DNA of 32,774 bases from Candidatus Zhuqueibacterota bacterium (GTDB lineage Bacteria > Zhuqueibacterota > Zhuqueibacteria > Residuimicrobiales > Residuimicrobiaceae). The notes below the pieces were generated by a model, which made no database searches, was not told the DNA's origin, and was given only the letters and a program-made list of their open reading frames with translations. The stretch lies in NCBI GenBank assembly GCA_963169875.1, contig CAUJEL010000199.1, positions 1-32,774 of the forward strand, read 5' to 3'. Position numbers and translations under genes: made by a program. Each line of letters starts with the position of its first letter. Position 1 is the stretch's first letter. This document shows positions 13,180-26,743 of this stretch, piece after piece.

Positions 13180-13212
13180 GTCACTCCTCTGGAGTGACAA
13201 GGCGAAGCTGTG
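13180..13212 (+). repeat. Hairpin plus dispersed word, copy 1
   Basis: GTCACTCC, a TCT loop and GGAGTGAC form a perfect 8-bp hairpin (13180-13198). Its right arm is the start of a 22-base word (GGAGTGACA then GGCGAAGCTGTG) that recurs with a single mismatch at 25036-25057. This copy lies 53 bases before the Wza-like gene; the other lies after the Wzc-like gene. Confidence 0.6.
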
Positions 13213-13265
13213 CCAATTTCGCGACTCCATCGTACATTGCATCACCTCTCATAAGGGAAGAATCC

Positions 13266-14171
13266 ATGAAAAAAAATCTGTTGCTCCTGTTTCTTTGCAT
13301 ACTGCTCGTCAGCAGCCTGCACGCCCAGGAACGCAAAATCAAAGCCGGCGACGTCATCGAGATCGTGGTCTATGGCCACACGGAACTGTCCCGCGTCGTC
13401 ACCGTCAATCCCCAGGGAGCCATTGATTTTCCTTTCATGCAGAGCGTGCCGGTCGACGGCCTCTCGCTCGACAAGCTGCGCGAGATTATCGTCGCCACGC
13501 TGTCGCGCTATCTCAATACCTATCCCGTGGTGACGGTCAGTTTCGCCAAGAGCAACACCATAAACGTCAGCGTTCTCGGCATGGTGAAGCGGCCCGGACT
13601 GGTGGCGGTGCCGCTCAACTCATCGCTGCAGGGCGCTTTGGCCATCGCAGAGGGGGTTACGCCCGGCGCACGCATCAATGAAATTACCCTCATCCGCAAC
13701 ATCGACGGCCGGATGATCAGCAGCACCTATGACATGGAAAAGTTTCTGCTTGACAGCGATTTCAAGCAGAACCCCACGGTCACTGAAGGCGATATCATCA
13801 TGGTCTCGGGCAATCCTGTGCTCGCGTCGATCAAGGTGCTCGGCGCGGTGCGCAGTCCTGGCATCTTTGACAATTACATGGGCGCCACGGTGCTTGATAT
13901 GATTATGCGCGCCGGCGGTCCGCTGGAGGACGCCAAACTGGATCAAATCCGCTATATTTCACCCTCGCGGAAAAAGAACGTCGAATACACAATCAATTTG
14001 AAGCAATTCCTCGAAACCCAGGAGTTCAGCCAGGTCCCGCCGGTCAAGGCCGGCGATATCATCTATATCCCCAAGAAGAAAAATTACTGGAAAGGCGTGC
14101 TCAGCGTGGCGCGCGACATCAGCACCCTGGCCATCGCGGCCTGGTATATTGTTCGAATTAATAAAGAATGA
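13266..14171 (+). CDS. Wza-like polysaccharide export outer-membrane protein
   Basis: A 301-residue protein with an N-terminal signal peptide (KKNLLLLFLCILLVSSLHA, cleavage probably before QERK). No proper lipobox is seen, so it is not clearly a lipoprotein. Mature residues 25-100 form a Poly_export domain (IKAGDVIEIVVYGHTEL, DFPFMQSVPVDGLSL). Two SLBB-type segments follow (VSVLGMVKRPGLVAVP and IKVLGAVRSPGIFDNY). The chain ends in a hydrophobic helix (about 281-297), matching the C-terminal helix through which Wza octamers cross the outer membrane. ATG 13266, behind AAGGGA, is preferred to an upstream ATG at 13194 because it starts the signal peptide. The Wzc-like partner is 8.4 kb downstream, with the RiPP cassette in between. 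Confidence 0.9.
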   Translation: MKKNLLLLFLCILLVSSLHAQERKIKAGDVIEIVVYGHTELSRVVTVNPQGAIDFPFMQSVPVDGLSLDKLREIIVATLSRYLNTYPVVTVSFAKSNTINVSVLGMVKRPGLVAVPLNSSLQGALAIAEGVTPGARINEITLIRNIDGRMISSTYDMEKFLLDSDFKQNPTVTEGDIIMVSGNPVLASIKVLGAVRSPGIFDNYMGATVLDMIMRAGGPLEDAKLDQIRYISPSRKKNVEYTINLKQFLETQEFSQVPPVKAGDIIYIPKKKNYWKGVLSVARDISTLAIAAWYIVRINKE

Positions 14172-14308
14172 GTCCACTCTCCTAATCCCTTAATTTAAAA
14201 ATTTTACCAATGACTACGATTCCAGGCTTATAAAAAACAATTCATGTAATTCGTGGTTGAAGCTTTTTGGAATAAACGCAAGAGTAGTATCTGAAAAAAG
14301 GCATTCCT

Positions 14309-14599
14309 ATGACAAGTGATACCAATAACAAACCCATGGCCAATCCGCTCATCGTTCTGCGCGAAGAATTCGACGATTGGGCCATTCTTTTTGACCCCGA
14401 TACCGGGGACGCCTCGGCCATCAATCCGGTGAGCGTCTTCATCTACAAGCATCTCGATGGCAAACATACGGTTCCTGACATTGTCGCCAAGTTGAGAAAA
14501 GAGTGCGAGGATGTGCCGGAAAACGCCGAAGCCGAGGTGCAGGAATTCATCCAGCAGTTGCTGGACAAGGGATACGCGGGGTATGAAAAGCAATTCTGA
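14309..14599 (+). CDS. PqqD-like peptide chaperone (ScmD-like)
   Basis: A 96-residue protein of the PqqD / RiPP recognition element fold, a small winged helix that binds the leader of a precursor peptide and delivers it to the modifying radical SAM enzyme. Features: EEFDDWAILFDPDTGDASAINPVSVFIYKHLDGKHTV-like pattern (residues 16-52, described here by its hallmarks: a Trp-containing strand, the DPDTG turn, INP, then a helix with hydrophobic spacing). IVAKLRKECEDVP and a final helix ending LLDKGYAGY complete it. This is the usual domain length. It precedes two radical SAM/SPASM genes and the likely precursor, which makes the role persuasive. It resembles ScmD of the cassette I know as SynChlorMet; that match is from memory. 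Confidence 0.85.
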   Translation: MTSDTNNKPMANPLIVLREEFDDWAILFDPDTGDASAINPVSVFIYKHLDGKHTVPDIVAKLRKECEDVPENAEAEVQEFIQQLLDKGYAGYEKQF

Positions 14600-14733
14600 A
14601 TTTTGAATGCTGGATTACGAGTCAACAGCCGGAAATTATGGCTTACCATCAGACAATCGACCTTCATCATTCAGCATTCAATCTTTATTATTCAGTATTC
14701 ATAATATAGCATTTTCCCGTAGAGTTTGCCCTT
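14600..14733. repeat. ATTCAGCATTCAA-type word repeat between PqqD-like and radical SAM genes
   Basis: The 134-base gap carries 'gaattttgaatgctggatta' at its start and 'attcagcattcaatctttattattcagtattcata' words at 14669-14703. These are two related degenerate words in opposite orientation. It is another member of the intergenic word-repeat population. No second precursor peptide is visible here. Confidence 0.5.
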
Positions 14734-15837
14734 ATGCCAAATGTGATAAAATCACCCCGTTCGCTCGACATTGATATCACCAGCCGCTGCAATTTGCGCT
14801 GCAAGTACTGCTATCATTTCAGCGGCCCCGGCGATGTGGACACAGACCTGCCCAAAGAGGAGTGGCTGCGGTTCTTCGTCGAATGCGGCCACTATGGGAT
14901 CATGGGACTCTCCCTGGCTGGTGGCGAGCCATTTTTCCGTAAGGATCTGCCCGAGCTTCTCGAAGGCATCATCGCCAACCGCATGCGCTTTTCCCTGCTC
15001 AGCAACGGCACCCTTATCGATGACGCCTGGGCTAAATATATCAAAGAGACGCGGCGCTGCAACTATATTCAGGTTTCTTTGGATGGGTCCAGGGCTGAAG
15101 TACATGATCAGCTACGCGGCAAAGGGCAGTTCGACAAAGCAGTGGCCGGTTTGCAGCACCTGCAGCGCCATGGCGTGCCGGTGACCGTTCGGGTGACGCT
15201 CAATAAACTCAATTACCATGATCTGGAAAACATCGCCCGGTTTTTGCTGGAAGAACTGGGGCTACCCGCTTTTTCCACCAATGCCGCTTCGTATATGGGA
15301 TTGTGCAAGCTGAATGACCAGGAGATCGGCCTGGATGTTGCCGAGCGCAGCGCACTCATGGCGGTTTTTGCCGATCTCGTGAAGCGTTATCCCGGCCGCT
15401 TCAGCGCCAACGCCGGGCCGCAGGCCGATCTGCGCATGTGGAGCGAGATGGAGCGGGCGCGTCTGGGCGGCTTGGCGCCGGCGCATCCAACCGGCGCCCT
15501 GACGGCCTGTGGCTGCGTCTTTGACCGCATGGCGGTCCGCGCAGACGGTATTATGACGCCCTGCACCATGCTCAGTCACATGGAGATGGGCCGTATCAAT
15601 CATGACGATCTGCGAGAAGTGTGGCAGAACCATCCCCTGATGCAAAGTATGCGAGCACGTAACGAAATATCGTTAAAATTGTTTGACTTTTGTAGCAGTT
15701 GTAATTATATTAACTATTGTACAGGTAACTGTCCCGGGGTGGCTTACGAACTAACAGGCGAAGTGGACCATCCCAGTCCGGATGCCTGCTTCAAACGCTT
15801 CCTTGGTGCGGGCGGCGTTTTACCCGAAATAAATTGA
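14734..15837 (+). CDS. Radical SAM/SPASM peptide-modifying enzyme (ScmE-like)
   Basis: A 367-residue PqqE/AlbA-type enzyme. The N-terminal radical SAM motif CNLRCKYC uses C19, C23 and C26. LSLAGGEPFFRKDL is the SAM-binding GGEP segment and IQVSLDGS follows in the barrel. The C-terminal SPASM region carries auxiliary cluster cysteines in ACGCVFDRMAVR, MTPCTML, FCSSCNYINYC, TGNCPG and the last PDACF. Such enzymes abstract a hydrogen from a peptide residue and form carbon or thioether crosslinks, depositing electrons through the auxiliary Fe-S clusters. The gene ends in a TTGA overlap with the next radical SAM gene, so translation is coupled. It matches ScmE by size and context; exact chemistry cannot be deduced. 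Confidence 0.88.
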   Translation: MPNVIKSPRSLDIDITSRCNLRCKYCYHFSGPGDVDTDLPKEEWLRFFVECGHYGIMGLSLAGGEPFFRKDLPELLEGIIANRMRFSLLSNGTLIDDAWAKYIKETRRCNYIQVSLDGSRAEVHDQLRGKGQFDKAVAGLQHLQRHGVPVTVRVTLNKLNYHDLENIARFLLEELGLPAFSTNAASYMGLCKLNDQEIGLDVAERSALMAVFADLVKRYPGRFSANAGPQADLRMWSEMERARLGGLAPAHPTGALTACGCVFDRMAVRADGIMTPCTMLSHMEMGRINHDDLREVWQNHPLMQSMRARNEISLKLFDFCSSCNYINYCTGNCPGVAYELTGEVDHPSPDACFKRFLGAGGVLPEIN

Positions 15838-17051
15838 TAATCAGTATTGCCCTTATTTCCGGATTTCTGTTATCAGGCATACATACGTTGTTGAGAGTAA
15901 ACGTACTGAACCAGTCCATTGAAACATCATATCCCCTGCGGACCCTGTATTTTTATTTGACCGAGGGATGTAACCTGGCGTGCCGCCACTGCTGGATCGC
16001 ACCCAGGTTTCAGGATGAGAAGCACCAGTACGGCTATCTGGATTATCAGCTCTTTGAAAAGATCATCACCGAGGCCAAACCGCTGGGATTGACAGGCGTC
16101 AAGCTCACCGGCGGCGAGCCGCTGATGCACCCGCGGATCGATGAAATAGTGGATCATATCCGGGAGCAAGAGCTGGCATTGACGGTCGAGACCAACGGCG
16201 TGCTGTGCACGCCGGAGCTGGCGCACAAAATGGCCGCCTGCCAATCAGCCTCCGTCTCCGTCAGCCTCGACGGCGTCGACGCAAAGACCCACGAGTGGGT
16301 GCGCGGTGTCAAGGGATCGTTCGAGGCAGCGTTGCAGGGGATACGGCATCTGGTTCAGGCCGGGCTGAAACCGCAGATCATCATGAGCATCATGCGCATC
16401 AATGTGGACCAGGTCGAGCCCATGGTGCGGCTGGCGGAAGAGCTGGGATGCGGTTCTGTCAAGTTCAATCTCATCCAGCCGACGGAGCGCGGCGAGCGGA
16501 TTTACGAGGCGGATCAGGGATTGACGATCGAAGAGTATATCGATCTGGGCAAATTCGTCGAAAATGAGCTGTCGGGCCGGACGCAGATAAAATTGTACTA
16601 TGACCATCCCATGGCTTTCCGGCCGTTGAGCAGGCTTTTCGGGGCAGAGGGTGATGGCTGCAGCCGCTGCGGCATTCTCGGGGTTCTTGGTGTCCTTTAC
16701 GATGGTTCCTATGCCTTGTGCGGCATCGGAACCAGCGTGCCGGAGATGATCTTTGGCCGGGCGGGCGAAGATCCCCTGGATACGGTGTGGCGGGAGAACC
16801 GGGTACTGAATGAGCTGCGTGAGGGTTTGCCGCAGAATCTCAAAGGTGTATGCTCCGATTGTTTGATGAAAAATATTTGTCTCGGTTCATGCGTGGCACA
16901 GAATTACTACCGGACAAAGAATATACTCGCTGGATTTTGGTTTTGTGAACAAGCGCATCAATTAAATCAATTTAACTATTCACGTCAAAAATCATCAGTT
17001 AAAACTGATAGGGAGGATTCAAATGAAGTGGGAGAAACCGAGATTGCATGA
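15834..17051 (+). CDS. Second radical SAM/SPASM peptide-modifying enzyme (ScmF-like)
   Basis: A 405-residue protein from TTG 15834, overlapping the previous stop. The cluster motif CNLACRHC uses C45, C49 and C52 in this numbering. VKLTGGEPLMHPRI is the SAM segment and VSVSLDGVDAKTHEWVRG the barrel strand. The SPASM part has GCSRCGILGVLGV, YALCGIG, GVCSDCLMKNICLGSC and a last Cys in FWFCEQA. The first 20 residues are hydrophobic and may be an artefact; later TTG codons near 15888-15891 could be the true start. The last 25 residues after the SPASM fold are polar (SSVKTDREDSNEVGE), perhaps because the downstream precursor start with its ribosome binding site is embedded there. It probably acts on the same peptide as the preceding enzyme, at other residues or in sequence. 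Confidence 0.87.
   Translation: MIISIALISGFLLSGIHTLLRVNVLNQSIETSYPLRTLYFYLTEGCNLACRHCWIAPRFQDEKHQYGYLDYQLFEKIITEAKPLGLTGVKLTGGEPLMHPRIDEIVDHIREQELALTVETNGVLCTPELAHKMAACQSASVSVSLDGVDAKTHEWVRGVKGSFEAALQGIRHLVQAGLKPQIIMSIMRINVDQVEPMVRLAEELGCGSVKFNLIQPTERGERIYEADQGLTIEEYIDLGKFVENELSGRTQIKLYYDHPMAFRPLSRLFGAEGDGCSRCGILGVLGVLYDGSYALCGIGTSVPEMIFGRAGEDPLDTVWRENRVLNELREGLPQNLKGVCSDCLMKNICLGSCVAQNYYRTKNILAGFWFCEQAHQLNQFNYSRQKSSVKTDREDSNEVGETEIA
17011..17016 (+). promoter_or_regulatory. Strong ribosome binding site of the precursor gene
   Basis: GGGAGG stands six bases before ATG 17023, inside the coding end of the second radical SAM gene. It is one of the best Shine-Dalgarno matches in the window. It supports high-level translation of the precursor compared with the enzymes and decides the start of this short gene. 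Confidence 0.7.
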
Positions 17052-17274
17052 TATGCATGCACTAGACAATGCCTTCGGTGCAGATTGTGTTTCCGGCTCG
17101 GCACCAACAGGAGGAGGAACATGTACTTCTGGAACTGCTGCTTATTCATGTGGTTCAGGAGCAGGTGTAAATACATGTGCACAAGGCAACACGGTGTCTG
17201 GGGGCAGATGTACAAACGGAAATTCGAATAATAACGGTTTTTGCCAAAATGGCAACGGTGTTACACAGGTTTAG
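17023..17274 (+). CDS. Candidate six-cysteine RiPP precursor peptide
   Basis: An 83-residue product with an obvious leader/core layout. The leader (1-21) begins MKWEKPRLHDMHALDNAFGA and contains a W-x-K-P element. The rest is rich in Gly, Ser, Thr and Asn with cysteines at 22, 34, 43, 52, 63 and 74, at intervals of 12, 9, 9, 11 and 11. There is no signal peptide, no transmembrane segment, and Lys and acidic residues are absent after residue 21. This composition is typical of substrates for thioether-forming radical SAM maturases. The start overlaps the ScmF-like gene by 29 bases behind a strong ribosome binding site. Its place directly after two radical SAM/SPASM genes and a PqqD homologue makes the precursor role likely. 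Crosslink positions, mature length and activity are unknown. Confidence 0.82.
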   Translation: MKWEKPRLHDMHALDNAFGADCVSGSAPTGGGTCTSGTAAYSCGSGAGVNTCAQGNTVSGGRCTNGNSNNNGFCQNGNGVTQV

Positions 17275-17351
17275 GCACACTTGTTTATGTAATAATAATA
17301 AACAATAGGTTGAAACGATTTATTTTATGTTTCATCAGCAGGGTAACATCT

Positions 17352-18236
17352 GTGGGACAAAATCTAAAGGGTTATAAATTAGAGTTACGAGATGGGAAAA
17401 AATGGTTTTTTCTCGCAGCTAACAATTTACACAGATGGTTTGAAGATTATACAAAAATCATGTGTTTGCAACCTTGCCGATATCAACAGGAACAGAGAGC
17501 AATCTATTTTGAGAAAGATTTTTTTTTATTACCACATAGATCTGCTTATCATATTGGTATTCGGAGCCGTTCCTCATCAAAATTTGACCGAATTAATGAT
17601 TTACTCGAAGATAATTATATAAAGCTGAGTCTTAGAAATATTGATGTATCAATAAATAATTACTATATGACGATGTCAAAAGGGCTATTCCCAATCTATG
17701 TCAATAGTATATGGCATGGAGGCTTATGTCTACATACAGCTTTTATCGAGCATGCCGGAAAAGGATATGCAATTGTCGGCCAGGGAAATGCTGGCAAAAC
17801 TACATGCGCGCGCAGGATCCCCGATCATTGGCAAGCAATTGCTGATGATGAGGTACTGATCGTAAAGGATTTATCTGATGAATATTTGGTACATCCATTC
17901 CCAACTTGGAGTGATTATATTTGGAATAGAGAGTGCAAAAAAACTTGGGATTCATCTAGTTATTCACGGTTAACAGCATTTTTTTTTATAAATAAGCACC
18001 CAGTCGATGCTATAACCCCCATTAGCAAAACAGAAGCATGCCTGAAGATTTATAAATCCGCAAATGAGGCACTACGTCGATTTTATCCAATTTTTACACC
18101 ATCAGAAAGATTATTGATCCAAAATAAACTAATGGATAATGCAAGCACAATTCTAAAAAAAATTAGGGCATTTAATATCAATGTAAGCTTGAATGGAAAA
18201 TTCTGGGAAAAAATTCAGGAACTTCAACTTGTCTAA
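17352..18236 (+). CDS. HprK-like P-loop protein (ScmC-like)
   Basis: A 294-residue protein if begun at GTG 17352, which has AGGG eight bases upstream; the frame is open back to TTG 17241 inside the precursor gene. The Walker A loop is GQGNAGKTTCARR (about residues 139-151), followed by IADDEVLIV, where an acidic pair could bind Mg, and by the VHPFPTWSDY motif. This layout is that of HPr-kinase-like proteins found in RiPP clusters. One such kinase phosphorylates a lasso precursor in paeninodin-type clusters, so a peptide kinase role is plausible here. It matches the ScmC component as I remember it. The gene is far richer in A+T than the radical SAM genes before it, with many ATA and AAA codons, suggesting a different recent history. 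Confidence 0.75.
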   Translation: MGQNLKGYKLELRDGKKWFFLAANNLHRWFEDYTKIMCLQPCRYQQEQRAIYFEKDFFLLPHRSAYHIGIRSRSSSKFDRINDLLEDNYIKLSLRNIDVSINNYYMTMSKGLFPIYVNSIWHGGLCLHTAFIEHAGKGYAIVGQGNAGKTTCARRIPDHWQAIADDEVLIVKDLSDEYLVHPFPTWSDYIWNRECKKTWDSSSYSRLTAFFFINKHPVDAITPISKTEACLKIYKSANEALRRFYPIFTPSERLLIQNKLMDNASTILKKIRAFNINVSLNGKFWEKIQELQLV

Positions 18237-18423
18237 TATATTTTTCTTTCGCTCGCTCAGGCAGAACCTTATATCCGTATGGAGCAAATTCAACTGGATT
18301 TCTGATGAAATTGCGGAAATGCTGCGAGTTACTCTAATTTACATTTCCATTTAGGCTGGTATTTGCGACGATCTATCATTAATAACTATTCCCAATTTTT
18401 ATTATGAAGATTAGCTATGTCAT
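18237..18423. other. AT-rich non-coding stretch
   Basis: Stops interrupt every frame. I recognise no gene, hairpin or repeat. Composition matches the flanking ScmC-like gene and the pseudogene that follows, so all three may have arrived together. Confidence 0.3.
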
Positions 18424-18615
18424 GAAGAAATCGAACGATCAGAGCACGAGATTAAAAAACTAACTCCAGGTGACTTCGGTTCCTTATGCGACTGGCTTAT
18501 ATACTAAAATGCAGATGTGTGGGATATACAAATCAAAGAAGATGTTTGTGCCTGGCGATTGGCAAAAATTGCCGGCATAGCACTATTAGGCTATCATAAA
18601 GGCAAAAGTTATTAA
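18424..18615 (+). pseudogene. Decayed antitoxin-like gene
   Basis: Translation in one frame reads EEIERSEHEIKKLTPGDF..., CDWLIY, a TAA stop at 18505-18507, then NADVWDIQIKEDV...RLAKIAGIAL...HKGKSY and a terminal TAA (18613-18615). The pattern matches a family of about 65-75-residue antitoxin-like proteins of type II modules (eIE..I..L...E...L..W...fDAD.WD.QIE.D...GRL..LA..AL...R.GK). One in-frame stop breaks it, there is no start codon in frame because TAG stands at 18412, and no toxin gene follows. It is thus a remnant. The family assignment is from memory of the consensus. Confidence 0.65.
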
Positions 18616-18693
18616 TTCTGCACAACCGTGAATCCCTGCTATCGCCCAATATTCTGACTTTCCAAACCGGCAAATCCCCGTCTTTTTAGCCTC

Positions 18694-19326
18694 TTGAAAG
18701 CACAATCGTTTACATATATCGGCCCCAGCATGCATCCCACTTTCAAGGCGGGGGATGGGCTGATCACGATTCCCTGTACCGGCAGGCCTATTCGAATTGG
18801 CGATGTGGTCATTTTCAAATCGCCGCAAGACAAAGCGCAGATTGTACACCGCGTAATTAAAATCACACCCCGGGGCATAAAAACCCGCGGAGACAACAAC
18901 CGCCTCGAAGATCCCTGGCTGCTACAGCCTCAAGACATCCTCGGCCGCGTCGTCGAAATCCAGCGCGGCAGCCGCCGCCTGAAAACCTGGAACGGCCTGG
19001 CCGGGCATCAATACGCAGAACTGCAGCGCACCAGGCGCCGCCTTCTCGATCGCCTGGCCGCCCTGTGGCCGCGATGGTTGCCGCGGCGCCTCCCGATCAT
19101 CCGTGCGCGCCATCTCAAAATAGCGATTTTTAAAAAACCTGGCGGAGATGAAAACGTGCTCCTGCTCGGCCGCCGCGCCATCGGCCGCCGTCGCGATGCC
19201 TCAACGCCCTGGATGATCCGGTCGCCCTACCGATTTTTTATCTCCACCGCAACATTGGCCGGGATTGATCGGCACGACCGAACGCCGAAAGACAAAAAAA
19301 ATGCGACTTGCCATAGACAAAAATGA
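18694..19326 (+). CDS. S24/S26 (signal peptidase I-like) Ser/His peptidase
   Basis: A 210-residue protein with the catalytic Ser in YIGPSMHPTFKAGD and, instead of the usual Lys, a His in QIVHRVIKI, as in the Ser/His archaeal/SipW branch of S26. RIGDVVIFKSP and KTRGDNN complete the domain. The C-terminal half is Arg-rich and ends WMIRSPYRFFI, a tail I associate with S26-like peptidases found beside RiPP maturation genes. The only start in frame after an upstream stop is TTG 18694, without a good ribosome binding site, so the N-terminus is uncertain. Placed after the precursor and HprK-like genes and before the ABC exporter, it is a candidate leader or maturation peptidase, since the exporter has no C39 domain. 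The remaining C-terminus after the RSPYRFF segment is unusually basic. Confidence 0.72.
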   Translation: MKAQSFTYIGPSMHPTFKAGDGLITIPCTGRPIRIGDVVIFKSPQDKAQIVHRVIKITPRGIKTRGDNNRLEDPWLLQPQDILGRVVEIQRGSRRLKTWNGLAGHQYAELQRTRRRLLDRLAALWPRWLPRRLPIIRARHLKIAIFKKPGGDENVLLLGRRAIGRRRDASTPWMIRSPYRFFISTATLAGIDRHDRTPKDKKNATCHRQK

Positions 19327-19537
19327 TCAGCAGCGCTGGATGCAGCAGTGGCGTCAGGCCGCTGTTGCCATGGCGGAGCAGCGGCAAAGCGAGCTGGCCG
19401 GAAAAAGCGAAGAGGAAATTTTGGCTGCCATTGATGCTCTGCTGAGCCTGCCGCATGACATGCCTGACGTCCCGGATCAAGAAGTGACTTCCGGTTTGGT
19501 TGAACAGCAAAAAATATTCCATAAAAATCGCAAATGA
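19301..19537 (+). CDS. Small partner protein of a nucleotidyltransferase (possible antitoxin)
   Basis: A 78-residue protein starting at ATG 19301, within the end of the S26 peptidase gene and overlapping the next gene by ATGA. It is charged and helical in the first half (QQRWMQQWRQAA, KSEEEILAAIDALLSLP) and ends with TSGLVEQQKIF. That conserved-looking TSGLVEQQ tail I have seen in small proteins encoded just before AbiEii-like nucleotidyltransferases. The tight overlap argues for a two-gene unit, possibly a toxin-antitoxin pair with this as antitoxin. The function has not been shown in this sequence. Confidence 0.6.
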   Translation: MRLAIDKNDQQRWMQQWRQAAVAMAEQRQSELAGKSEEEILAAIDALLSLPHDMPDVPDQEVTSGLVEQQKIFHKNRK

Positions 19538-20097
19538 ATCCCATTTTTCAAGCGGCCCAAAATTTGCAAAATTTCTGTGAACAAACAAGATGGAAATTTT
19601 GCTTTATCGGCGGTCTCGCTGTACAGCGCTGGGGCCAGCCTCGCATGACCATGGATGTTGATATGACACTGCTCACTGGTTTTGGCAACGAGCAGTATTA
19701 TATAAAAAAACTGTTGCAGCAATTCACGCCCCGGCGATCGGATGCTGCTGAGTTTGCCGTGAAAAATCGGGTCTTATTGATAAAAGACGAAAATCGCACC
19801 CCATTTGATATTGCTCTTGGCGCCATACCCTTTGAAGAAAATGCCATTCGCCGCTCTTCGATCTGGATTATTAATCAAGAATTCTCGTTGCGCACGTGTT
19901 CCGCTGAAGATTTGATCGTGCACAAGTCCTTCGCTAATCGTGGCATAGATTGGTTTGATATCGAATCCATTTTGCAGCGCCAGCAGGGCGTTTTAAATAT
20001 TCAACAAATACGCGATGATTTAAAACCATTGGCTGAGCTCAAAGAGGAACCTGAAATCCTCACCAAACTTGAAAGAATGATCACCGCGTACCGTTGA
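19534..20097 (+). CDS. AbiEii/AbiGii-like nucleotidyltransferase
   Basis: A 187-residue protein with the minimal nucleotidyltransferase signature: GGLAVQRWGQPRMTMDVDMTL, holding the GG loop and the D-x-D metal pair, then TPFDIALGAIPF with a third acidic residue. The C-terminal helices contain SAEDLIVHKSFANRGIDWFDIE, the (D)LI..K..A.R..D..D pattern of the family. Related proteins are toxins of type IV or MenT-type modules that modify tRNA or other targets. It overlaps the 78-residue partner by four bases. It may be unrelated to the peptide cassette and simply inserted in it, because it separates the S26 peptidase from the ABC exporter. Confidence 0.72.
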   Translation: MNPIFQAAQNLQNFCEQTRWKFCFIGGLAVQRWGQPRMTMDVDMTLLTGFGNEQYYIKKLLQQFTPRRSDAAEFAVKNRVLLIKDENRTPFDIALGAIPFEENAIRRSSIWIINQEFSLRTCSAEDLIVHKSFANRGIDWFDIESILQRQQGVLNIQQIRDDLKPLAELKEEPEILTKLERMITAYR

Positions 20098-20182
20098 ATC
20101 GGACGACGCGGCAGATCTCTGATCTATGATGTCGGATGTAAAATGGCCACAAAATCCGATTGCCAACTGCCAACTGTATTGA
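20098..20182. repeat. Short word element before the ABC exporter
   Basis: This 85-base gap includes 'cagatctctgatctatgatgtcgg' and 'attgccaactgccaactg', two more degenerate words of the intergenic repeat population. No ribosome binding site of quality is visible before ATG 20183. Confidence 0.35.
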
Positions 20183-21994
20183 ATGAAATCGATCATTAAA
20201 AAGATCCAAACCGGTCTTCCTGCGCTGCGTCAGGCCGCGGAACTGGTCTATAAAAGCTCCGGGAAATGGACCCTTCTCACCGCTTTCCTGGTATTACTGC
20301 AGGGACTGTTCCCGCTGGTTACGCTTTATCTGACCAAACTGGTTGTCGATACCGCGGCAACCGGAGTGACAGCGGCCGATAAAAGTGATGCGTTTCAAAA
20401 GCTATTCACTTTCATTATTCTGGCTGCGGCCGCGGGTGTCCTCGGCTCCCTGTTGAACAGCCTGGCGCAGATCGTTCAGGAGTACCGCGATCTGCGCGTC
20501 AATGAATATATTTTGAATCTGATCCACGCCAAATCGGTGCAGGTCGATCTGGCCTTCTATGAAAATCCGGCCTATTTCGACAATCTTCATATGGCGCAGA
20601 ACCAGGCCGCGTTCCGGCCGGTCTCCATGGTCAATAAATTGGTGCAGTTGGTGCAAAACGCCATCACCCTGGGCGCCATGGTGGCGGTGCTGCTCACTTT
20701 TAATGCGCTGGTCATCATACTGGCAGGAATAGCCGTTGTGCCGGCTGTCTGGGTGAAATACCGGTTCTCGCGCCGTCTCTATGAATGGCACAAGAAATGG
20801 ACGCATTCGGAGCGAAAATCCCAATATTACAGCTGGCTCATCACCTCTAAAGTCTATGCCAAAGAGCTGCGGCTTTTCGGCCTGGGCGAGCTATTTATCG
20901 ACCGGTTCAAGGAGCTGCGTTGGCGCGTCGCCATGGAACGGCTCAAGTTGAACCGCAGGCGCACCCTCGCCGAGCTGGCGGGACAGGTTTTCACGGTGGT
21001 CGTGGCCTTTGCGCTGCTCGCCTTCATCGCCCGCGATGCGGTCCGGGGCGCCATCACGCTCGGCGGACTGGTGATGTATTACCAGGCTTTTCAACGCGGA
21101 CAGACCTCGATGCAATCGACATTAAAAGGATTGGCGGAGCTATACGAGGATTCCCTTTTTCTTCGCTCGCTTTTTGACTTTCTCGAAGTTAAACCGGACA
21201 TTGCGGACCCGCCGGCACCGCGCCGATTGGTGCAAAAGGTGCAACACGGCCTTGCTTTTGAAAAGGTATGTTTTCAATATCCTGCAAGTGGCAAACCGGC
21301 GTTGCAGGACATCAGCTTTACTATTGCGCCCGGAGAGCATATTGCCCTGGTGGGCGAGAACGGCAGCGGCAAATCCACCCTCATCAAACTGATGTGCCGA
21401 CTCTACGACCCGGACACGGGCGTTATTACCCTGGATGGCCACGATATTCGTGAATATGCCGTAGCGGATATCCGCCAATCCATGAGTGTGCTGCTACAGG
21501 ACTTTTCCCAGTATCACACCACCGCGCGCGAAAACATCTGGTACGGAGATATCCAATCGAACGCAGGGGATGAACGCATCGAAGCGACTGCACGTCTGGC
21601 GGGCGCCAACCGGGTCATAGACAAACTGCCTCAAAAGATGGATACACCGTTGGGACGCTGGATAGAAGAGGGTAGCGAGCTTTCAACCGGTGAATGGCAG
21701 CGCATGGCCCTGGCGCGCACTTTTTTCCGCGAGGCGCCCATCGTCATCCTCGATGAGCCCACCAGCAGTCTGGATGCAGATGCGGAAACCCGCATTTATC
21801 AGTCATTCCTGCAGCTGGCAAAAGGTAAAACTGCACTGTTTATCAGTCATAAAATGTTTTCGGCGCGCATAGCCGATCGCATTCTGGTGCTGGAAAACGG
21901 ACATCTGGCCGAGAGTGGAAACCATACAGAGCTGATGCGGCGCAATGGCATCTACGCCCGGCTCTATTCGCTGCAGGCGCAGCGCTTTGCATGA
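20183..21994 (+). CDS. ABC exporter, fused permease and ATPase
   Basis: A 603-residue half-transporter of the MsbA/HlyB-like exporter class, acting as a homodimer in the inner membrane. The N-terminal 330 residues hold about six hydrophobic helices (for example LLTAFLVLLQGLFPLVTLYL and AITLGGLVMYY). The nucleotide domain shows Walker A GENGSGKST (about 391-399), Q-loop in VLLQDFSQYH, an altered signature ELSTGEWQRMALART where LSGGQ is usual, Walker B IVILDEPTSSLD and the H-loop FISHK. There is no N-terminal C39 peptidase domain, so leader removal must be done by another protein. By position it is the best candidate to export the modified peptide; a lipid or sugar substrate for the surrounding polysaccharide locus is also possible. 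Confidence 0.88.
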   Translation: MKSIIKKIQTGLPALRQAAELVYKSSGKWTLLTAFLVLLQGLFPLVTLYLTKLVVDTAATGVTAADKSDAFQKLFTFIILAAAAGVLGSLLNSLAQIVQEYRDLRVNEYILNLIHAKSVQVDLAFYENPAYFDNLHMAQNQAAFRPVSMVNKLVQLVQNAITLGAMVAVLLTFNALVIILAGIAVVPAVWVKYRFSRRLYEWHKKWTHSERKSQYYSWLITSKVYAKELRLFGLGELFIDRFKELRWRVAMERLKLNRRRTLAELAGQVFTVVVAFALLAFIARDAVRGAITLGGLVMYYQAFQRGQTSMQSTLKGLAELYEDSLFLRSLFDFLEVKPDIADPPAPRRLVQKVQHGLAFEKVCFQYPASGKPALQDISFTIAPGEHIALVGENGSGKSTLIKLMCRLYDPDTGVITLDGHDIREYAVADIRQSMSVLLQDFSQYHTTARENIWYGDIQSNAGDERIEATARLAGANRVIDKLPQKMDTPLGRWIEEGSELSTGEWQRMALARTFFREAPIVILDEPTSSLDADAETRIYQSFLQLAKGKTALFISHKMFSARIADRILVLENGHLAESGNHTELMRRNGIYARLYSLQAQRFA

Positions 21995-22005
21995 TGCTGC
22001 AAGTG

Positions 22006-22076
22006 TATTTCCCTATTTCTCTATTTCCTTATTCCCTTATTCCCTTATTCCCTTATTTCCCTATGTCCTTATGCTC
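22006..22076. repeat. Tandem TTCCCTTA-type repeat after the ABC exporter
   Basis: About 70 bases of nearly regular 9-base units (tttccctat, ttcccttat and variants) begin 12 bases after the exporter stop. Identical copies sit at about 22030-22056. It is a simple repeat, probably variable in copy number; no role is evident. Confidence 0.7.
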
Positions 22077-22144
22077 CTTTGTCCCTGGATGTACCACAAT
22101 GACAGCTCTTTGCCGTCTGATCTCTGTAAATTTTGGAGGCATTT

Positions 22145-22522
22145 ATGGCTGAGATAACCCTCGAAAAAACGTATGCGCTGCTCGAAAAGCTGGCTGAATA
22201 TGTAATGACCGAAATTCCGGCAATTAAGCAGGATATTGCAATCATCAAGCAAGACGTAGCCGGTCTGAAGCAAGACGTAAAAGAGCTGAAAATTAGCTAC
22301 TTTAACCTCAGCACGGATCATAATTCACTCGCGCAAAGGGTTACGCGCCTGGAAGAAAAAATGGATTATGTCATCAACGCTCTGGACGCCCAAACGAAAA
22401 AAATCGATGACATGCTGATTGAGCAGAAAGCTCAACTGTACACCCTGGACGTCTACAACCAACGCATCGGCGATCTGGAAGAAAAAGTCTTTGGCTATCG
22501 CGTCCGTGATAAAGAAGATTAA
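22145..22522 (+). CDS. Small coiled-coil protein of unknown function
   Basis: A 125-residue, soluble, highly charged protein. It is almost wholly heptad-patterned, with repeats of IKQDIAIIKQDVAGLKQDV type around residues 26-46 and further heptads in LAQRVTRLEEKMDYVINAL and DLEEKVFGYRV. ATG 22145 has GGAGG five bases upstream, the best Shine-Dalgarno site in this part of the window. It has no signal peptide or catalytic motif. Similar short coiled-coil proteins are common as lone hypothetical genes. It lies between two repeat blocks just before the Wzc-like kinase; any link is unproven. Confidence 0.65.
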   Translation: MAEITLEKTYALLEKLAEYVMTEIPAIKQDIAIIKQDVAGLKQDVKELKISYFNLSTDHNSLAQRVTRLEEKMDYVINALDAQTKKIDDMLIEQKAQLYTLDVYNQRIGDLEEKVFGYRVRDKED

Positions 22523-22527
22523 GCTTT

Positions 22528-22612
22528 CTCTGACTTCTGATCTCTGTCCTCTATCCTTATCTCTCGAAATCCGGCATCATTTTCCAAAATCCGCAATCAA
22601 AACAAGGGGCTT
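22528..22612. repeat. Word-repeat block between the coiled-coil gene and the Wzc-like gene
   Basis: It contains 'cttctgatctctgtcctctatccttatctc', whose reverse complement shares words with 10117-10160, then 'gaaatccggcatcattttccaaaatccgcaatc', which shares words with 25075-25142 and 25500-25580. It is a useful bridge showing that several word families belong to one population. Confidence 0.6.
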
Positions 22613-22620
22613 ATTAACGC

Positions 22621-24858
22621 ATGAACGAAGCAATCGACACCAACCAGGCCCACGAATGGACCCTGCAGGATTACATCAACATCGTGCAGCGGCGCCTATG
22701 GCTCATCGTGGTGGTATTCGCACTCGTACTATCAGCAACGCTGGTTTACGTGCTCAGCCGCGACAAAATCTACGAATCCGGAACCACCTTTGTCATCGAG
22801 AACTCGGACAGTGAGCTGCAGTCGCTGCTCGGCAACACCCGTTTTGGTTACTGGCAGGATCAGGAGCGCGCCCAGCAGATCGAATTCTTTCAGGCCGTCA
22901 TCGCCAGCCGCACCTATAATGAAATGGTGCAGGAGCGCGTGGCTGCGGACTCGGTGCTGCGGCGGCTGCGGGTGCCTGACAAGGAGATTGATCTGGCGCT
23001 GGCCAGCATCTCCCTGGTCTCCTCGGCAAAGACCGACCTGATGTTTCTGCGCGCCGAGGCCCTCAACCCGACCGTGGCCTATCGCATCGCCAGCATCGCC
23101 ATCGACTTGTTCAAAAGCCGCACGCGCCAGGTCAAACTGGAGCAGACGCGCAACATCGTTGATTATGTCGAGAAGCAAAAAGAGATCGCCTCGGATAAAC
23201 TCGAAGAGACCGAGCGCGCCCTGCAGGAGTACAACCGCAATACCCCGGCAATGCTCCCAGGCGACGAAAGCGGCTTGCTCAACAAATTCACCGCGCTGGA
23301 GATGCAGTTCGAGGAAGTGCGGACGCAGCGCGAGCTGGCCGAGGCCAATCTCGCCGCCTACGACCGCCGTTTGCGCGAGATGAAGGCGCCGGTGTCGCCG
23401 GCGCTGGACAAGACCTCCAGTCCGATGATCCAGCAGCTGCAGAGCGACCTTGAACGCCTCACGGTGGAAAAGGAACAGCTGCAAAACAGCACCGCCGATG
23501 CGATACAGCTGGCTGCCATCGATGCGCGCATCAACACGCTCAAGAACGAGCTCATCCAGCGCATCATCAATGAAAACGCCAACGCCATGCCCACCTCTTC
23601 CGTGGAAGAGAGCGTCTTGAAAGAAATTCAGGAAAACCGCATCAAGGAAGAATTGAATCTCTACATTCTCAAGAACAAGGAGCGCTATTTCCAGGGGCTG
23701 AAAAATCAGTACTCTTCGCAGCATCCGCAGTTGATGGACCGAGCCATCGAAGAGGCGAAGCTGAAACGCGGCAGGAGCGTGTACGAAAATCTCTATAATA
23801 TCCTCCTTGAAAAAGGCGAAGAGGCGCGCATCCGCGCCGCCACCGGCACTGGCGGCCTGCGCATCCTCGATGAACCGCGTCTGCCGGAAGAGCCCATGCC
23901 CAGCAACGCCCGGCGCAAGATCATGCTCGGCATCGTCCTCGGTCTCGGCCTTGGACTCGGACTGGCTCTGACCATGGAGTTCCTCGATCACTCCATTCGT
24001 ATGCAGGATGATGTCACGCAGAAACTGGGACTGCCCCTGCTCGGCGCCGTGCCGCTGATCGGCGGCAGTTCTCCTTTCCAGCAGGCCTCCAAATGGCCGA
24101 TCTGGGGCAAGAAAAAGAAATCTGCGCACAGATCGGTGCATCCCGGCAACGGCGAACACAAGGCCTTTCTCATCACCGCCCTGCGGCCGCGCGATCCGGT
24201 GGTGGACACCTATCGCAGCATGCGCACCAACTTGCAGTTCGCCAGCGTCGACAAGCCCATCAAATCGCTGGTCATCAGCAGTTCCATCCCCAGCGAGGGC
24301 AAGACGCTGACCGTCGCCAATCTCGCCATCTCCTACGCGGAGCTGGGCAAGCGTGTGGTCATCATCGACGGTGACATGCGCAAGCCCAAACAGCACGAAG
24401 TGTTCGGCCTCAAAAAGACGCCGGGCCTGTCGGATTGCCTGATCAAGGGATGTGATATAGACCAGGTCCTGTACAAGACCCATATCCCCAATCTCTTTCT
24501 CATCCCCTGCGGCACCAATCCGCCCAATCCGGCGGAGATGATCGCCAGTCAGCGCCTGAGCGATTTTCTTGCGCATGCTGAGAGCCTGTTCGATCTGGTC
24601 ATCATCGACACGCCGCCTGCCAATGTGGTGACCGACGCCATTCTTTTCTCGACCAAGGCCAGTCATACCATGCTGGTTATCAAGTTCGCATCCACCAACA
24701 TTCGCATGGTGGCCGATGCCATTGCCAATCTGCGGCGGGCGCGCGCCAACCTGGCCGGCGCGGTGCTCAACGGCGTCAAAGTCGGCCGCGGCTATGGGTA
24801 TTATAACAGCTACTATTCCTATTACTACTCGGATGCAGGAGAGAAGAGGAAACGCTGA
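22621..24858 (+). CDS. Wzc-like polysaccharide co-polymerase and tyrosine autokinase
   Basis: A 745-residue inner-membrane protein that controls capsule or exopolysaccharide chain length and export by cycles of tyrosine phosphorylation. TM1 is RLWLIVVVFALVLSATLVYV (about 22-41), followed by a Wzz domain and a long periplasmic coiled coil (about 170-370). TM2 is the Gly/Leu-rich IMLGIVLGLGLGLGLAL (about 435-452). The cytoplasmic BY-kinase domain has Walker A SSIPSEGKTLT (about 553-563), A' VVIIDGDMRKP and B LVIIDTPP. It ends in a Tyr cluster, YGYYNSYYSYYYS (about 723-736), the usual autophosphorylation site. It is the expected partner of the Wza-like gene upstream. The cluster has nine Tyr among 13 residues, unusually dense. 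Confidence 0.93.
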   Translation: MNEAIDTNQAHEWTLQDYINIVQRRLWLIVVVFALVLSATLVYVLSRDKIYESGTTFVIENSDSELQSLLGNTRFGYWQDQERAQQIEFFQAVIASRTYNEMVQERVAADSVLRRLRVPDKEIDLALASISLVSSAKTDLMFLRAEALNPTVAYRIASIAIDLFKSRTRQVKLEQTRNIVDYVEKQKEIASDKLEETERALQEYNRNTPAMLPGDESGLLNKFTALEMQFEEVRTQRELAEANLAAYDRRLREMKAPVSPALDKTSSPMIQQLQSDLERLTVEKEQLQNSTADAIQLAAIDARINTLKNELIQRIINENANAMPTSSVEESVLKEIQENRIKEELNLYILKNKERYFQGLKNQYSSQHPQLMDRAIEEAKLKRGRSVYENLYNILLEKGEEARIRAATGTGGLRILDEPRLPEEPMPSNARRKIMLGIVLGLGLGLGLALTMEFLDHSIRMQDDVTQKLGLPLLGAVPLIGGSSPFQQASKWPIWGKKKKSAHRSVHPGNGEHKAFLITALRPRDPVVDTYRSMRTNLQFASVDKPIKSLVISSSIPSEGKTLTVANLAISYAELGKRVVIIDGDMRKPKQHEVFGLKKTPGLSDCLIKGCDIDQVLYKTHIPNLFLIPCGTNPPNPAEMIASQRLSDFLAHAESLFDLVIIDTPPANVVTDAILFSTKASHTMLVIKFASTNIRMVADAIANLRRARANLAGAVLNGVKVGRGYGYYNSYYSYYYSDAGEKRKR

Positions 24859-24929
24859 CCGGTGGGCGCTACAAATTGTAATTATTTGTAAATATGGGTT
24901 TAATAATACAATAAAATCATATTTTTCCC

Positions 24930-24958
24930 TTGACATGATCCGTTCAAATTTTTATATT
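24930..24958 (+). promoter_or_regulatory. Near-consensus sigma-70-type promoter for the sugar operon
   Basis: A perfect TTGACA (24930-24935), exactly 17 bases, then TATATT (24953-24958). It is the best match to the bacterial housekeeping consensus in the window. Transcription would begin near 24965 and run into the DUF2442-like gene and the nonulosonic-type operon. Confidence 0.72.
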
Positions 24959-24976
24959 AAAAAATCGGGGATCTTC

Positions 24977-25042
24977 ATGTCAGCTTTTTCATTCCTCACC
25001 CAAATACTCATTTCAATATCTCTGTGTACGTTCATGGAGTGA
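24977..25042 (+). CDS. Possible 21-residue hydrophobic leader peptide
   Basis: ATG 24977, six bases after GGGG, opens a 21-codon frame (MSAFSFLTQILISISLCTFME). It lies about 12 bases after the likely transcription start. The product is hydrophobic and its stop lies inside the dispersed word repeat. It could be a translated leader, or simply chance; I recognise no family. Confidence 0.25.
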   Translation: MSAFSFLTQILISISLCTFME

Positions 25043-25057
25043 CATGGCGAAGCTGTG
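25036..25057 (+). repeat. Dispersed 22-base word, copy 2
   Basis: GGAGTGACA followed by TGGCGAAGCTGTG matches 13191-13212 in 21 of 22 positions and in the same orientation. Here the left hairpin arm seen in copy 1 is missing. Confidence 0.6.
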
Positions 25058-25065
25058 TAAGGAGA

Positions 25066-25142
25066 TTTCGAATTTGTGATTTCGGATTTCGGATGGTCTG
25101 TTCTCTTCCCTCTGTCCTCTTTCCCGAAATCCGAAATCCATT
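25066..25142. repeat. GAAATCCGAAATC word block before the DUF2442-like gene
   Basis: Words of the type 'tttgtgatttcggatttcggat' and its complement 'cccgaaatccgaaatccat' face each other around a 'tctcttccctctgtcctctttc' middle, so the two ends could pair as an imperfect hairpin. The vocabulary recurs at 22560-22612 and 25490-25590. Confidence 0.55.
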
Positions 25143-25187
25143 TGTCCGCTTTGATACTAATTATAAGAGCATTTAGCAGGCGAACCA

Positions 25188-25472
25188 ATGTTTCGTATTA
25201 AAGAATTTAAAACTTTGCCCAAATACCAAATTTTGATAAGATTTGAGGATGGCGTAGAAGGCACTGTTGATTTATCTCATCTGGCAGGACACGGCATTTT
25301 TGCTGAGTGGTTGGAGAAGGGGCGATTTGAAAGTGTCCAGATCGGTGCATCCGGAGAATTGAAATGGGGTGAGAACATCGATCTTTGTCCGGATTCTCTT
25401 TACTTGAAAATTACTGGTAAAAAACCGGGAGAGCTGTTTCCGTTGCCTATCCAGGAATCAGTCAGTGCATGA
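25188..25472 (+). CDS. DUF2442-like small protein
   Basis: A 94-residue protein with the DUF2442 pattern: an N-terminal strand pair (FKTLPKYQILIRFEDGVEGTVDLSHL), then GIFAEWLEKGRFESVQI, and the acidic-aromatic end LKWGENIDLCPDSLYLKI. Such proteins often sit beside DUF4160 proteins in small accessory or toxin-antitoxin-like units, but no DUF4160 gene is present here. It is the first full gene after the strong promoter at 24930. Function is unknown. Confidence 0.8.
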   Translation: MFRIKEFKTLPKYQILIRFEDGVEGTVDLSHLAGHGIFAEWLEKGRFESVQIGASGELKWGENIDLCPDSLYLKITGKKPGELFPLPIQESVSA

Positions 25473-25479
25473 AATTCCG

Positions 25480-25600
25480 GATTGATGAGATTTTGGATTT
25501 GTGATTTCAGAATTCGGAATTTAAGCCCCCACTTTCCGATATCCGAAATCATTTTCCGCAATCCGAAATCATTTGTTTCCAAATTCCGAAATGCCTTCCC
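25480..25600. repeat. Second GAAATCCGAAATC word block
   Basis: The gap of 164 bases before the NTP_transf_5-like gene is built mainly of 'tttgtgatttcagaattcggaattt' and 'gatatccgaaatcattttccgcaatccgaaatc' words. It repeats the vocabulary of 25066-25142 on the other side of the DUF2442-like gene, so that gene is bracketed by two copies. Confidence 0.55.
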
Positions 25601-25636
25601 CCTTTCCCAACAACACGAACCGTATACTATAAAACA

Positions 25637-26743
25637 ATGCTTAAAAATGCAGCACTTGAAACCCAATTCATCCTGCTCGGTTCGCGTAGAAACCTTGATA
25701 ATGAGAATAAAGAACGCTTTGCCGAAATCGCCCGGCAGAAGCTGGATTGGTCTAAGGTTTACTCTTCTGCTATTCTCTGGGGATTGCTGCCGCCATTATA
25801 CAGGAATCTGATCGAAGTAAAATCACTGGTACCATCGCAATTCCTCAAACCATTTTCACTAGCCTATCAGCAAAATCTGGTTAGAAATCTCCAGCTCTCC
25901 ACGGAACTTATCAGGTTATTGCACTTGCTGCAGCAGGAGGAAATTACAGCTGTTCCGTTCAAAGGACCGGCGCTTGCCTATTATCTGTACCAGGACATTG
26001 CATTACGCAGAGCTGCTTGTGATCTCGACATTTTTGTCACTAGAGAAAATGTTGCCAGAGTCCTGGAGATCGTTCAGGCGAACGGCTATACACTTTATCA
26101 GGATCATCAGGGACTTTCCCACGAGCATTATCTCCAATTCAAGTCACATTATATCCTTCTGGGCGCGGATCGAAAACCGGCTCTTGAAATTCATTGGGAC
26201 ATCGCCCCTGGATATTTTACTTCTCATTTCAATTTTCCGCAAAAAATCAAGAATATAACCACCATAAACTATCAACAAGAAACATTAGCTTATTTAAATC
26301 CAGCGGATCTGATGCAGTGCCTCTGCATCCATCTTGCTCGGCACCTGCAAAAATCATTAGTATGGATAAAAGACATCGCCGACCTGGCTGATCAGTTCGA
26401 CGCTGCGGATTGGTCTCCTTTTCTGCAAAGATGCAAAAAAGAACAGTGCCAGCGAGTTGTTTTACTGGGACTCGGATTGAGTGATCATTTTTTTGCGCCT
26501 CATTTGCCGGATAGTGTGCGCAAAGCTCTGAAAGCGGATAATCAAGTACAAAAATTAGTACAACGACATGCCAGGGGATTACTCGAAACCAACTCATCTC
26601 AAAAAATGAGTTCCTGGAAATATGCGCTCACCTACAGTCGCGAGATGTTCGCTCTTCAAGATTCTGTTAAAGCCAAAATAGACCTGGCAACCGGCCGATT
26701 GCTGGAAATGCTTACAACTTCAAGATTAATATCAACGCCCTAA
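25637..26743 (+). CDS. NTP_transf_5-like nucleotidyltransferase family protein
   Basis: A 368-residue protein with the signature of the uncharacterised nucleotidyltransferase family PF14907: VPFKGPALAYYLYQDIALRRAACDLDIFV (residues about 99-127; hallmarks are the KG loop, LY, the R, and the D-L-D pair). This is followed by a helical region with LEIHWDIAPGYF and LMQCLCIHLARHLQKSLVWIKDIADL, where H and W-x-K-D-x-x-D positions are typical. Such genes occur in lasso and other RiPP clusters together with HprK-like kinases, and also in polysaccharide clusters. Here it is separated from the peptide cassette by the Wzc-like gene and runs straight into wecB with a 2-base gap, so a role in either pathway is open. 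Confidence 0.78.
   Translation: MLKNAALETQFILLGSRRNLDNENKERFAEIARQKLDWSKVYSSAILWGLLPPLYRNLIEVKSLVPSQFLKPFSLAYQQNLVRNLQLSTELIRLLHLLQQEEITAVPFKGPALAYYLYQDIALRRAACDLDIFVTRENVARVLEIVQANGYTLYQDHQGLSHEHYLQFKSHYILLGADRKPALEIHWDIAPGYFTSHFNFPQKIKNITTINYQQETLAYLNPADLMQCLCIHLARHLQKSLVWIKDIADLADQFDAADWSPFLQRCKKEQCQRVVLLGLGLSDHFFAPHLPDSVRKALKADNQVQKLVQRHARGLLETNSSQKMSSWKYALTYSREMFALQDSVKAKIDLATGRLLEMLTTSRLISTP

Follow-up and report, generated by a model that had tools for sequence, protein, structure and literature searches.

The 32,774-nt stretch of contig CAUJEL010000199.1 from a Candidatus Zhuqueibacterota bacterium (the window, to whose positions coordinates refer unless another locus is named) very probably encodes a SynChlorMet-type pathway for a ribosomally synthesized and post-translationally modified peptide (RiPP), with an 83-residue frame as its predicted precursor. 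Judged from its sequences, the family to which this precursor belongs is far wider than the existing precursor model TIGR04252 and is governed by a simple rule: comparable loci in 18 genomes share a design in which a [WY]xxP leader is followed by 2 to about 19 Cys-x-x-Gly (CxxG) units. We consider it likely, on the same kind of evidence, that the pathway modifies these CxxG units, whatever the bond formed. Below, L numbers denote loci and G numbers genomes. The core features are the following.

14309 to 14599, plus strand: ScmD, PqqD-type RiPP recognition element (RRE; leader-binding chaperone); TIGR04248 135.9 bits (cut-off 100), PF05402 57.1 bits
14734 to 15837, plus strand: ScmE, radical SAM/SPASM peptide-modifying enzyme; TIGR04250 539.4 bits (cut-off 400), CX3CX2C and full set of SPASM cysteines
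15834 to 17051, plus strand: ScmF, second radical SAM/SPASM enzyme; TIGR04251 573.3 bits (cut-off 400), CX3CX2C and full set of SPASM cysteines
17023 to 17274, plus strand: ScmA-like precursor peptide, 83 aa, six CxxG units; leave-genome-out profile E 1.6e-11
17029 to 17040, plus strand: leader motif W-E-K-P ([WY]xxP), predicted ScmD-binding site; Pro invariant in 24 aligned precursors
17086 to 17253, plus strand: core units CVSG, CTSG, CGSG, CAQG, CTNG and CQNG, following the CxxG rule of the precursor family
17241 to 18236, plus strand: ScmC, HprK-like P-loop kinase; TIGR04249 193.2 bits (cut-off 125)

Each of the five consecutive frames reported in an earlier sequence-only reading was found at its place, encoding in order 96, 367, 405, 83 (including six cysteines) and 331 residues. 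The 4-base overlap of ScmE with ScmF and the 29-base overlap of ScmF with the peptide frame give the genes the layout of one operon. Membership was judged by the NCBIfam SynChlorMet equivalog models at their curated cut-offs, which ScmC, ScmD, ScmE and ScmF all exceed, and the earlier assignment to SynChlorMet is thereby borne out. The same reading's proposal of a new class fails, because both the cassette and its precursor type are in the catalogue already, and the extent it gave (14309-18236) includes the five genes but overlooks a protease and an exporter further downstream, with which the functional locus reaches at least 21994. Nor does that reading mention the kinship with the pathways of linear polyphosphorylated peptides (LPPs) and of paeninodin. 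In G009, the order is SLBB, ScmD, ScmE, ScmF, two precursors, ScmC, a signal peptidase-like protein (SpI) and the exporter. A scan of genome contigs with one protein returned a single relative only, and no ScmF match was found in a plasmid collection.

The 83-residue peptide with its CxxG pattern is not a product of chance, because Gly stands at +3 of all six cysteines (equalled in 18 of 200,000 shuffles of the peptide core), a ribosome site (GGGAGG, 17011-17016) lies six bases 5' of its ATG, and the peptide was the sole window match of a profile trained on the precursors of other genomes (E 1.6e-11; 3,116 open reading frames searched). With a second profile, A1, whose training included the peptide, it was the only match in the whole genome. 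The window leader, MKWEKPRLHDMHALDNAFGADC, contains the WxKP motif noted earlier, but the form shared by the family is the broader [WY]xxP.

A tblastn search with the peptide found two copies adjoining the SynChlorMet genes of G009, nearly all SynChlorMet loci of other genomes proved on inspection to have frames built in the same way, and homologous precursors were present in every SynChlorMet genome examined. Aligned precursors share K-[WY]-x-x-P near the N-terminus, with the Pro invariant in 24 of 24, followed by C-x-x-G units; among 27 precursors, 148 of 158 cysteines lie within CxxG (Gly at +3). These units are spaced 9-14 residues apart in nearly all cases, their common neighbours extend the pattern to C-x-x-G-[ST]-x-A-x-G-x, and their number is lowest in L061, with two, and highest in L073 (236 aa), with about nineteen. 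Since the first precursor set had been picked by eye for CxxG or [WY]xKP, it was tested with leave-genome-out profiles, each trained without the genome in question and its near relatives and run on the same 3,116 frames. These profiles recovered the precursor in every left-out locus and brought up frames not seen before, a second copy in L035 and a weak one in L067. Together with the homologous frames beside other SynChlorMet genes, this recovery supports the earlier proposal that the 83-residue product is the substrate. The small Cys/Gly frame with its leader, expected at equivalent loci between ScmF and ScmC, is present but not always in that position: it follows ScmC in L033 and L067 and precedes ScmD in L062 and, for one copy, in L038.

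In a sampling of 388 genomes from many phyla, 17 have ScmF (E <= 1e-70), and all 17 carry a [WY]xxP/CxxG precursor frame. The precursor profile (E <= 1e-5), applied to 378 genomes of this sampling, matched 16 of the 17 ScmF genomes and one genome without ScmF; the ScmF genome that it missed, G159, has a nineteen-unit precursor directly after ScmF. The match in the genome without ScmF, G131, was rejected as a precursor, being a tandem DNA repeat that is open in several frames. Because the profile was built from most of the ScmF genomes, the 17/17 co-occurrence is partly circular in sensitivity, though not in specificity, and independent support comes from the leave-out test, from G269 (outside the training set) and from the lack of true matches elsewhere. 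An alternative is that the 83-residue frame encodes an unrelated, secreted Cys/Gly-rich protein and that the real substrate lies elsewhere; repeats rich in Cys, Gly and Thr also occur in structural proteins, and library searches gave no useful Pfam or NCBIfam match for the peptide. We regard this as highly improbable in view of the leave-genome-out recovery, the co-occurrence with ScmF, the RRE-type leader motif and genes that are adjacent or overlapping.

Precursors were also seen apart from cassettes. G269 has an orphan ten-unit CxxG precursor (L105, 482-913) in a stretch without SynChlorMet genes and a ScmF-like gene on another contig; L072 of this genome was set aside as a cassette, its ScmF being weak (288 bits), the partner only about 24% like ScmE, and no precursor adjoining. 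G367 has three copies of ScmF and two further orphan precursors (L107, 1991-2263, and L108, 2790-3035), so that several unlinked precursors may share one set of enzymes.

Since NCBIfam already holds a precursor model, TIGR04252 (SCM_precur_ScmA; 49 positions, cut-off 35 bits), the cassette and a precursor were known to the authors of these models. The earlier statement that no substrate had been assigned is thus incorrect, even though the model misses the window peptide. Its cut-off was reached by no peptide of this analysis, the best being that of L062 at 29.2 bits, and the window peptide is called ScmA-like from its context and shared design rather than filed under TIGR04252.

The radical SAM motif reads CNLRCKYC in ScmE and CNLACRHC in ScmF, and the SPASM set (C-x..G-x4-C, CX2CX5CX3C and a final C) is complete in both, so that the cysteines are intact as the sequence-only reading had claimed; the family match of ScmF begins at residue 33. 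We infer that the two enzymes crosslink the CxxG units. Our best guess for the bond, to which we give somewhat less than an even chance, is one from the Cys sulphur to the Gly alpha carbon within each unit, since no residues other than Cys and the Gly at +3 are fixed, and since rings of this kind occur in streptosactin (Cys31-Gly34 and Cys25-Ser28, i.e., CxxG/CxxS sactionines; PMC8172795). In thuricin CD, the two radical SAM enzymes TrnC and TrnD can work as one complex (PMC12093266). It is an even call whether the same pathway instead carries out other chemistry, such as beta or gamma thioethers (ranthipeptide-like), C-C bonds, epimerisation or separate jobs for ScmE and ScmF, with the cysteines then holding metal or forming disulphides. 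Consistent with this, ScmE and ScmF are close to no sactisynthase family (the StsB, SkfB and AlbA models scored far below cut-off), and in TvgB a radical SAM enzyme is seen to act on all units of a repeat with no involvement of Cys (PMC9062424). In addition, two different reactions are possible because ScmE and ScmF are only about 26% identical over their aligned part. Against other chemistry, the 148 units have a single fixed pair of residues, formed by Cys and the Gly at +3, and its spacing is that of the streptosactin ring.

Further genes of the predicted pathway, or possibly related to it, lie downstream of ScmC.

18694 to 19326, plus strand: SpI, archaeal/SipW-type signal peptidase (S26), predicted leader peptidase; PF10502 22.2 bits, just below the cut-off of 22.9
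20183 to 21994, plus strand: MsbA-like ABC exporter, predicted product exporter; PF00005 117 bits
25637 to 26743, plus strand: NTP_transf_5 nucleotidyltransferase, possible secondary modifier, loosely linked here; PF14907 166.9 bits

The best PDB sequence match of ScmD was 9x8z_B, LppB in complex with a YxxP leader (E 0.0014), and the RREs of lasso and LPP peptides bind a [WY]xxPx[L/V/I/F/A] leader motif (PMC13381572). At the position of LppB D70, in a column read by eye and including two Trp loci only, ScmD has Glu in both Trp-leader loci, Asp in many Tyr loci and His or Glu in close Tyr relatives. The catalytic residues of SpI (S12, H52 and D67, within GPSMHPT, VHRV and TRGDNN) are invariant in nine aligned proteins, and the protein has no membrane-spanning segment (highest 19-residue hydropathy, 1.16), indicating that it is soluble. 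Most loci have such a protease next to the cassette: relatives of SpI occur in 14 further cassette loci, and five of them are fusions, in which the partner is ScmC (L033, L034 and L062) or a PqqD domain (L068 and L070). In the LPP pathway, the SipW-like peptidase LppS cuts the leader only if the RRE LppB presents it (PMC13381572). Because of this precedent, and because ScmD is closest, among solved structures, to leader-bound LppB, SpI is likely the leader peptidase of the cassette.

ScmC has a GxxxxGK[ST]T loop together with an invariant His and Asp, which is the HPr kinase pattern; the invariant residues are H165, G185-K186, T188 and D202. Its profile matches the HPr kinase structures 1jb1, 2qmh and 1ko7, and the folds of PEPCK and HPr kinase were matched by its AlphaFold model, which has a mean pLDDT of 78. 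The frame opens with a TTG at 17241, but the family match begins only at residue 45, so the true start is probably further downstream. In paeninodin and LPP biosynthesis, the HprK-like enzymes place phosphate on Ser of the peptide (PMC13381572). The precursors are rich in Ser and Thr beside CxxG, and no single target residue is indicated.

In the pathway that we propose, ScmD would grip the WEKP leader and present the core to ScmE and ScmF, which would work along the CxxG units. The likeliest single reaction would form a bond between the sulphur of each Cys and the alpha carbon of the Gly at +3, with a loss of 2 Da per ring, to give a chain of small unnested rings resembling streptosactin. ScmC would phosphorylate Ser or Thr of the peptide, SpI, guided by ScmD, would cut off the leader, and the exporter would bring the product to the cell surface, possibly in the service of the polysaccharide locus that surrounds the cassette. 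Extended to SynChlorMet peptides of many phyla, this becomes a picture of beads on a string, in which a radical SAM pair makes 2 to about 19 Cys-Gly thioether rings of four residues each, an HprK-like kinase then phosphorylates the peptide, a soluble signal peptidase guided by the RRE releases it and export takes it to the envelope, as a radical SAM branch of a lasso/LPP superfamily; taken as a whole, we regard this picture as possible though doubtful.

Several observations weigh against the proposed pathway. Among NCBIfam families, WgkB, NirJ and AhbD are nearer by score to ScmE and ScmF than most sactisynthases are, and kinship is therefore no guide to the chemistry of the two enzymes. The window peptide gave no match to TIGR04252, SpI is separated from ScmC by 457 bp, and ScmC could act on something other than the peptide. 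Finally, an AxG ahead of the first Cys agrees with the -3/-1 rule of signal peptidases in several precursors, but AxGxC also occurs inside the repeats and AxG thus marks no one cleavage site; since AxGxC is a component of the repeat, an AxG rule for leader cleavage is not claimed.

The product might instead be mainly an LPP-like phosphopeptide, defined by the kinase, protease and exporter, to which the radical SAM enzymes make a minor change. The gene set, the [WY]xxP leader and the polysaccharide locus are indeed as in LPPs (PMC13381572). We consider this improbable, however, because the window lacks the LPP consensus YxxPxVLxHQxIxFETxxS, the cassettes keep both SPASM enzymes while NTP_transf_5 and the exporter occur in fewer loci, and what is conserved in the core is Cys, a residue that the LPP consensus does not contain.

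Relatives of the exporter were found in 9 other cassette loci. An NTP_transf_5 gene lies near the cassette in L061, L065, L066, L067, L069 and L074, and that of the window is 3.6 kb past the exporter. LPP and paeninodin clusters also occupy capsule loci and include an NTP-transferase (PMC13381572). Polysaccharide-export genes flank the window cassette, with SLBB at 13194-14171 and a Wzz-like gene at 22621-24858. An AbiEii-like nucleotidyltransferase (19534-20097) lies between SpI and the exporter, and a decayed frame with internal stops (18409-18618, plus strand) lies between ScmC and SpI. The latter resembles an intact antitoxin-like frame of L037 (about 2479-3260, minus strand), a locus of the same genus, where a ParE-like toxin follows. 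In L037 (G001), ScmC is in pieces (3269-3951, minus strand), SpI and the exporter are seemingly intact, and the contig ends there; this suggests decay of the cassette in a genome closely related to that of the window. Long frames with a radical SAM half were seen near or far from SynChlorMet cassettes in L032 (2062-4017, minus strand), L067 (11868-13826, minus strand), L022, L026 and L010, and at least in L032 this half is joined to an HprK-like half in one chain. The weak precursor match of L067 (16812-16997) is in the same stretch as one of these frames, and the long radical SAM/HprK-like frames are perhaps a sister RiPP system.

The open literature searched held no paper on SynChlorMet, ScmE/ScmF, the TIGR accessions or CxxG radical SAM repeats, although one could exist elsewhere, and it reported neither a SynChlorMet chemistry nor a leader protease. 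What is new here, for a cassette already catalogued, is a sharper definition of the precursor family and a proposed leader protease. The rule of [WY]xxP and CxxG supplies a defined substrate for work in vitro and predicts the modification site, while the gene fusions name a candidate leader protease and the cassette is tied to lasso and LPP peptides. Should the rings prove real, the product would be a thioether peptide in which the repeat count of the gene dictates how many rings are formed.

Among known systems, streptosactin (GggA/GggB) has an acceptor three residues past Cys and unnested rings (PMC8172795), as predicted for the window peptide, but it is a 14-mer with two rings made by one radical SAM enzyme, and the sactisynthase models are far from ScmE and ScmF. 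The TVGG-repeat peptides of TvgA/TvgB likewise involve a radical SAM enzyme that works along a repeated core (PMC9062424), whereas there valine is converted to cyclopropylglycine, Cys is absent and the accessory genes are others. The closest system is SynChlorMet itself (TIGR04248-TIGR04252: ScmD, ScmC, ScmE, ScmF and ScmA), four proteins of which are represented in the window above cut-off; the differences are that the window precursor lies outside the ScmA model and that its locus includes a signal peptidase and an exporter. With LPPs (Popov et al. 2026, PMC13381572), the locus has in common a discrete RRE, an HprK-like kinase, a SipW-like peptidase, an MsbA-like exporter, an NTP-transferase, the [WY]xxP leader and a polysaccharide locus, whereas the LPPs of that paper are described as restricted to Bacillota, have no radical SAM enzyme and differ in leader consensus and core. 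Paeninodin-like lasso peptides share the WxxP leader, the discrete PqqD-type RRE, the HprK-like kinase and the NTP-transferase; neither a lasso macrolactam cyclase nor a B2 protease was found among the scanned frames from 13194 to 26743. Since the window leader does not follow the LPP consensus and the lasso cyclase is missing, the cassette is, on its gene content, a member of neither group, and it resembles both in its predicted handling of the leader, with two radical SAM enzymes added.

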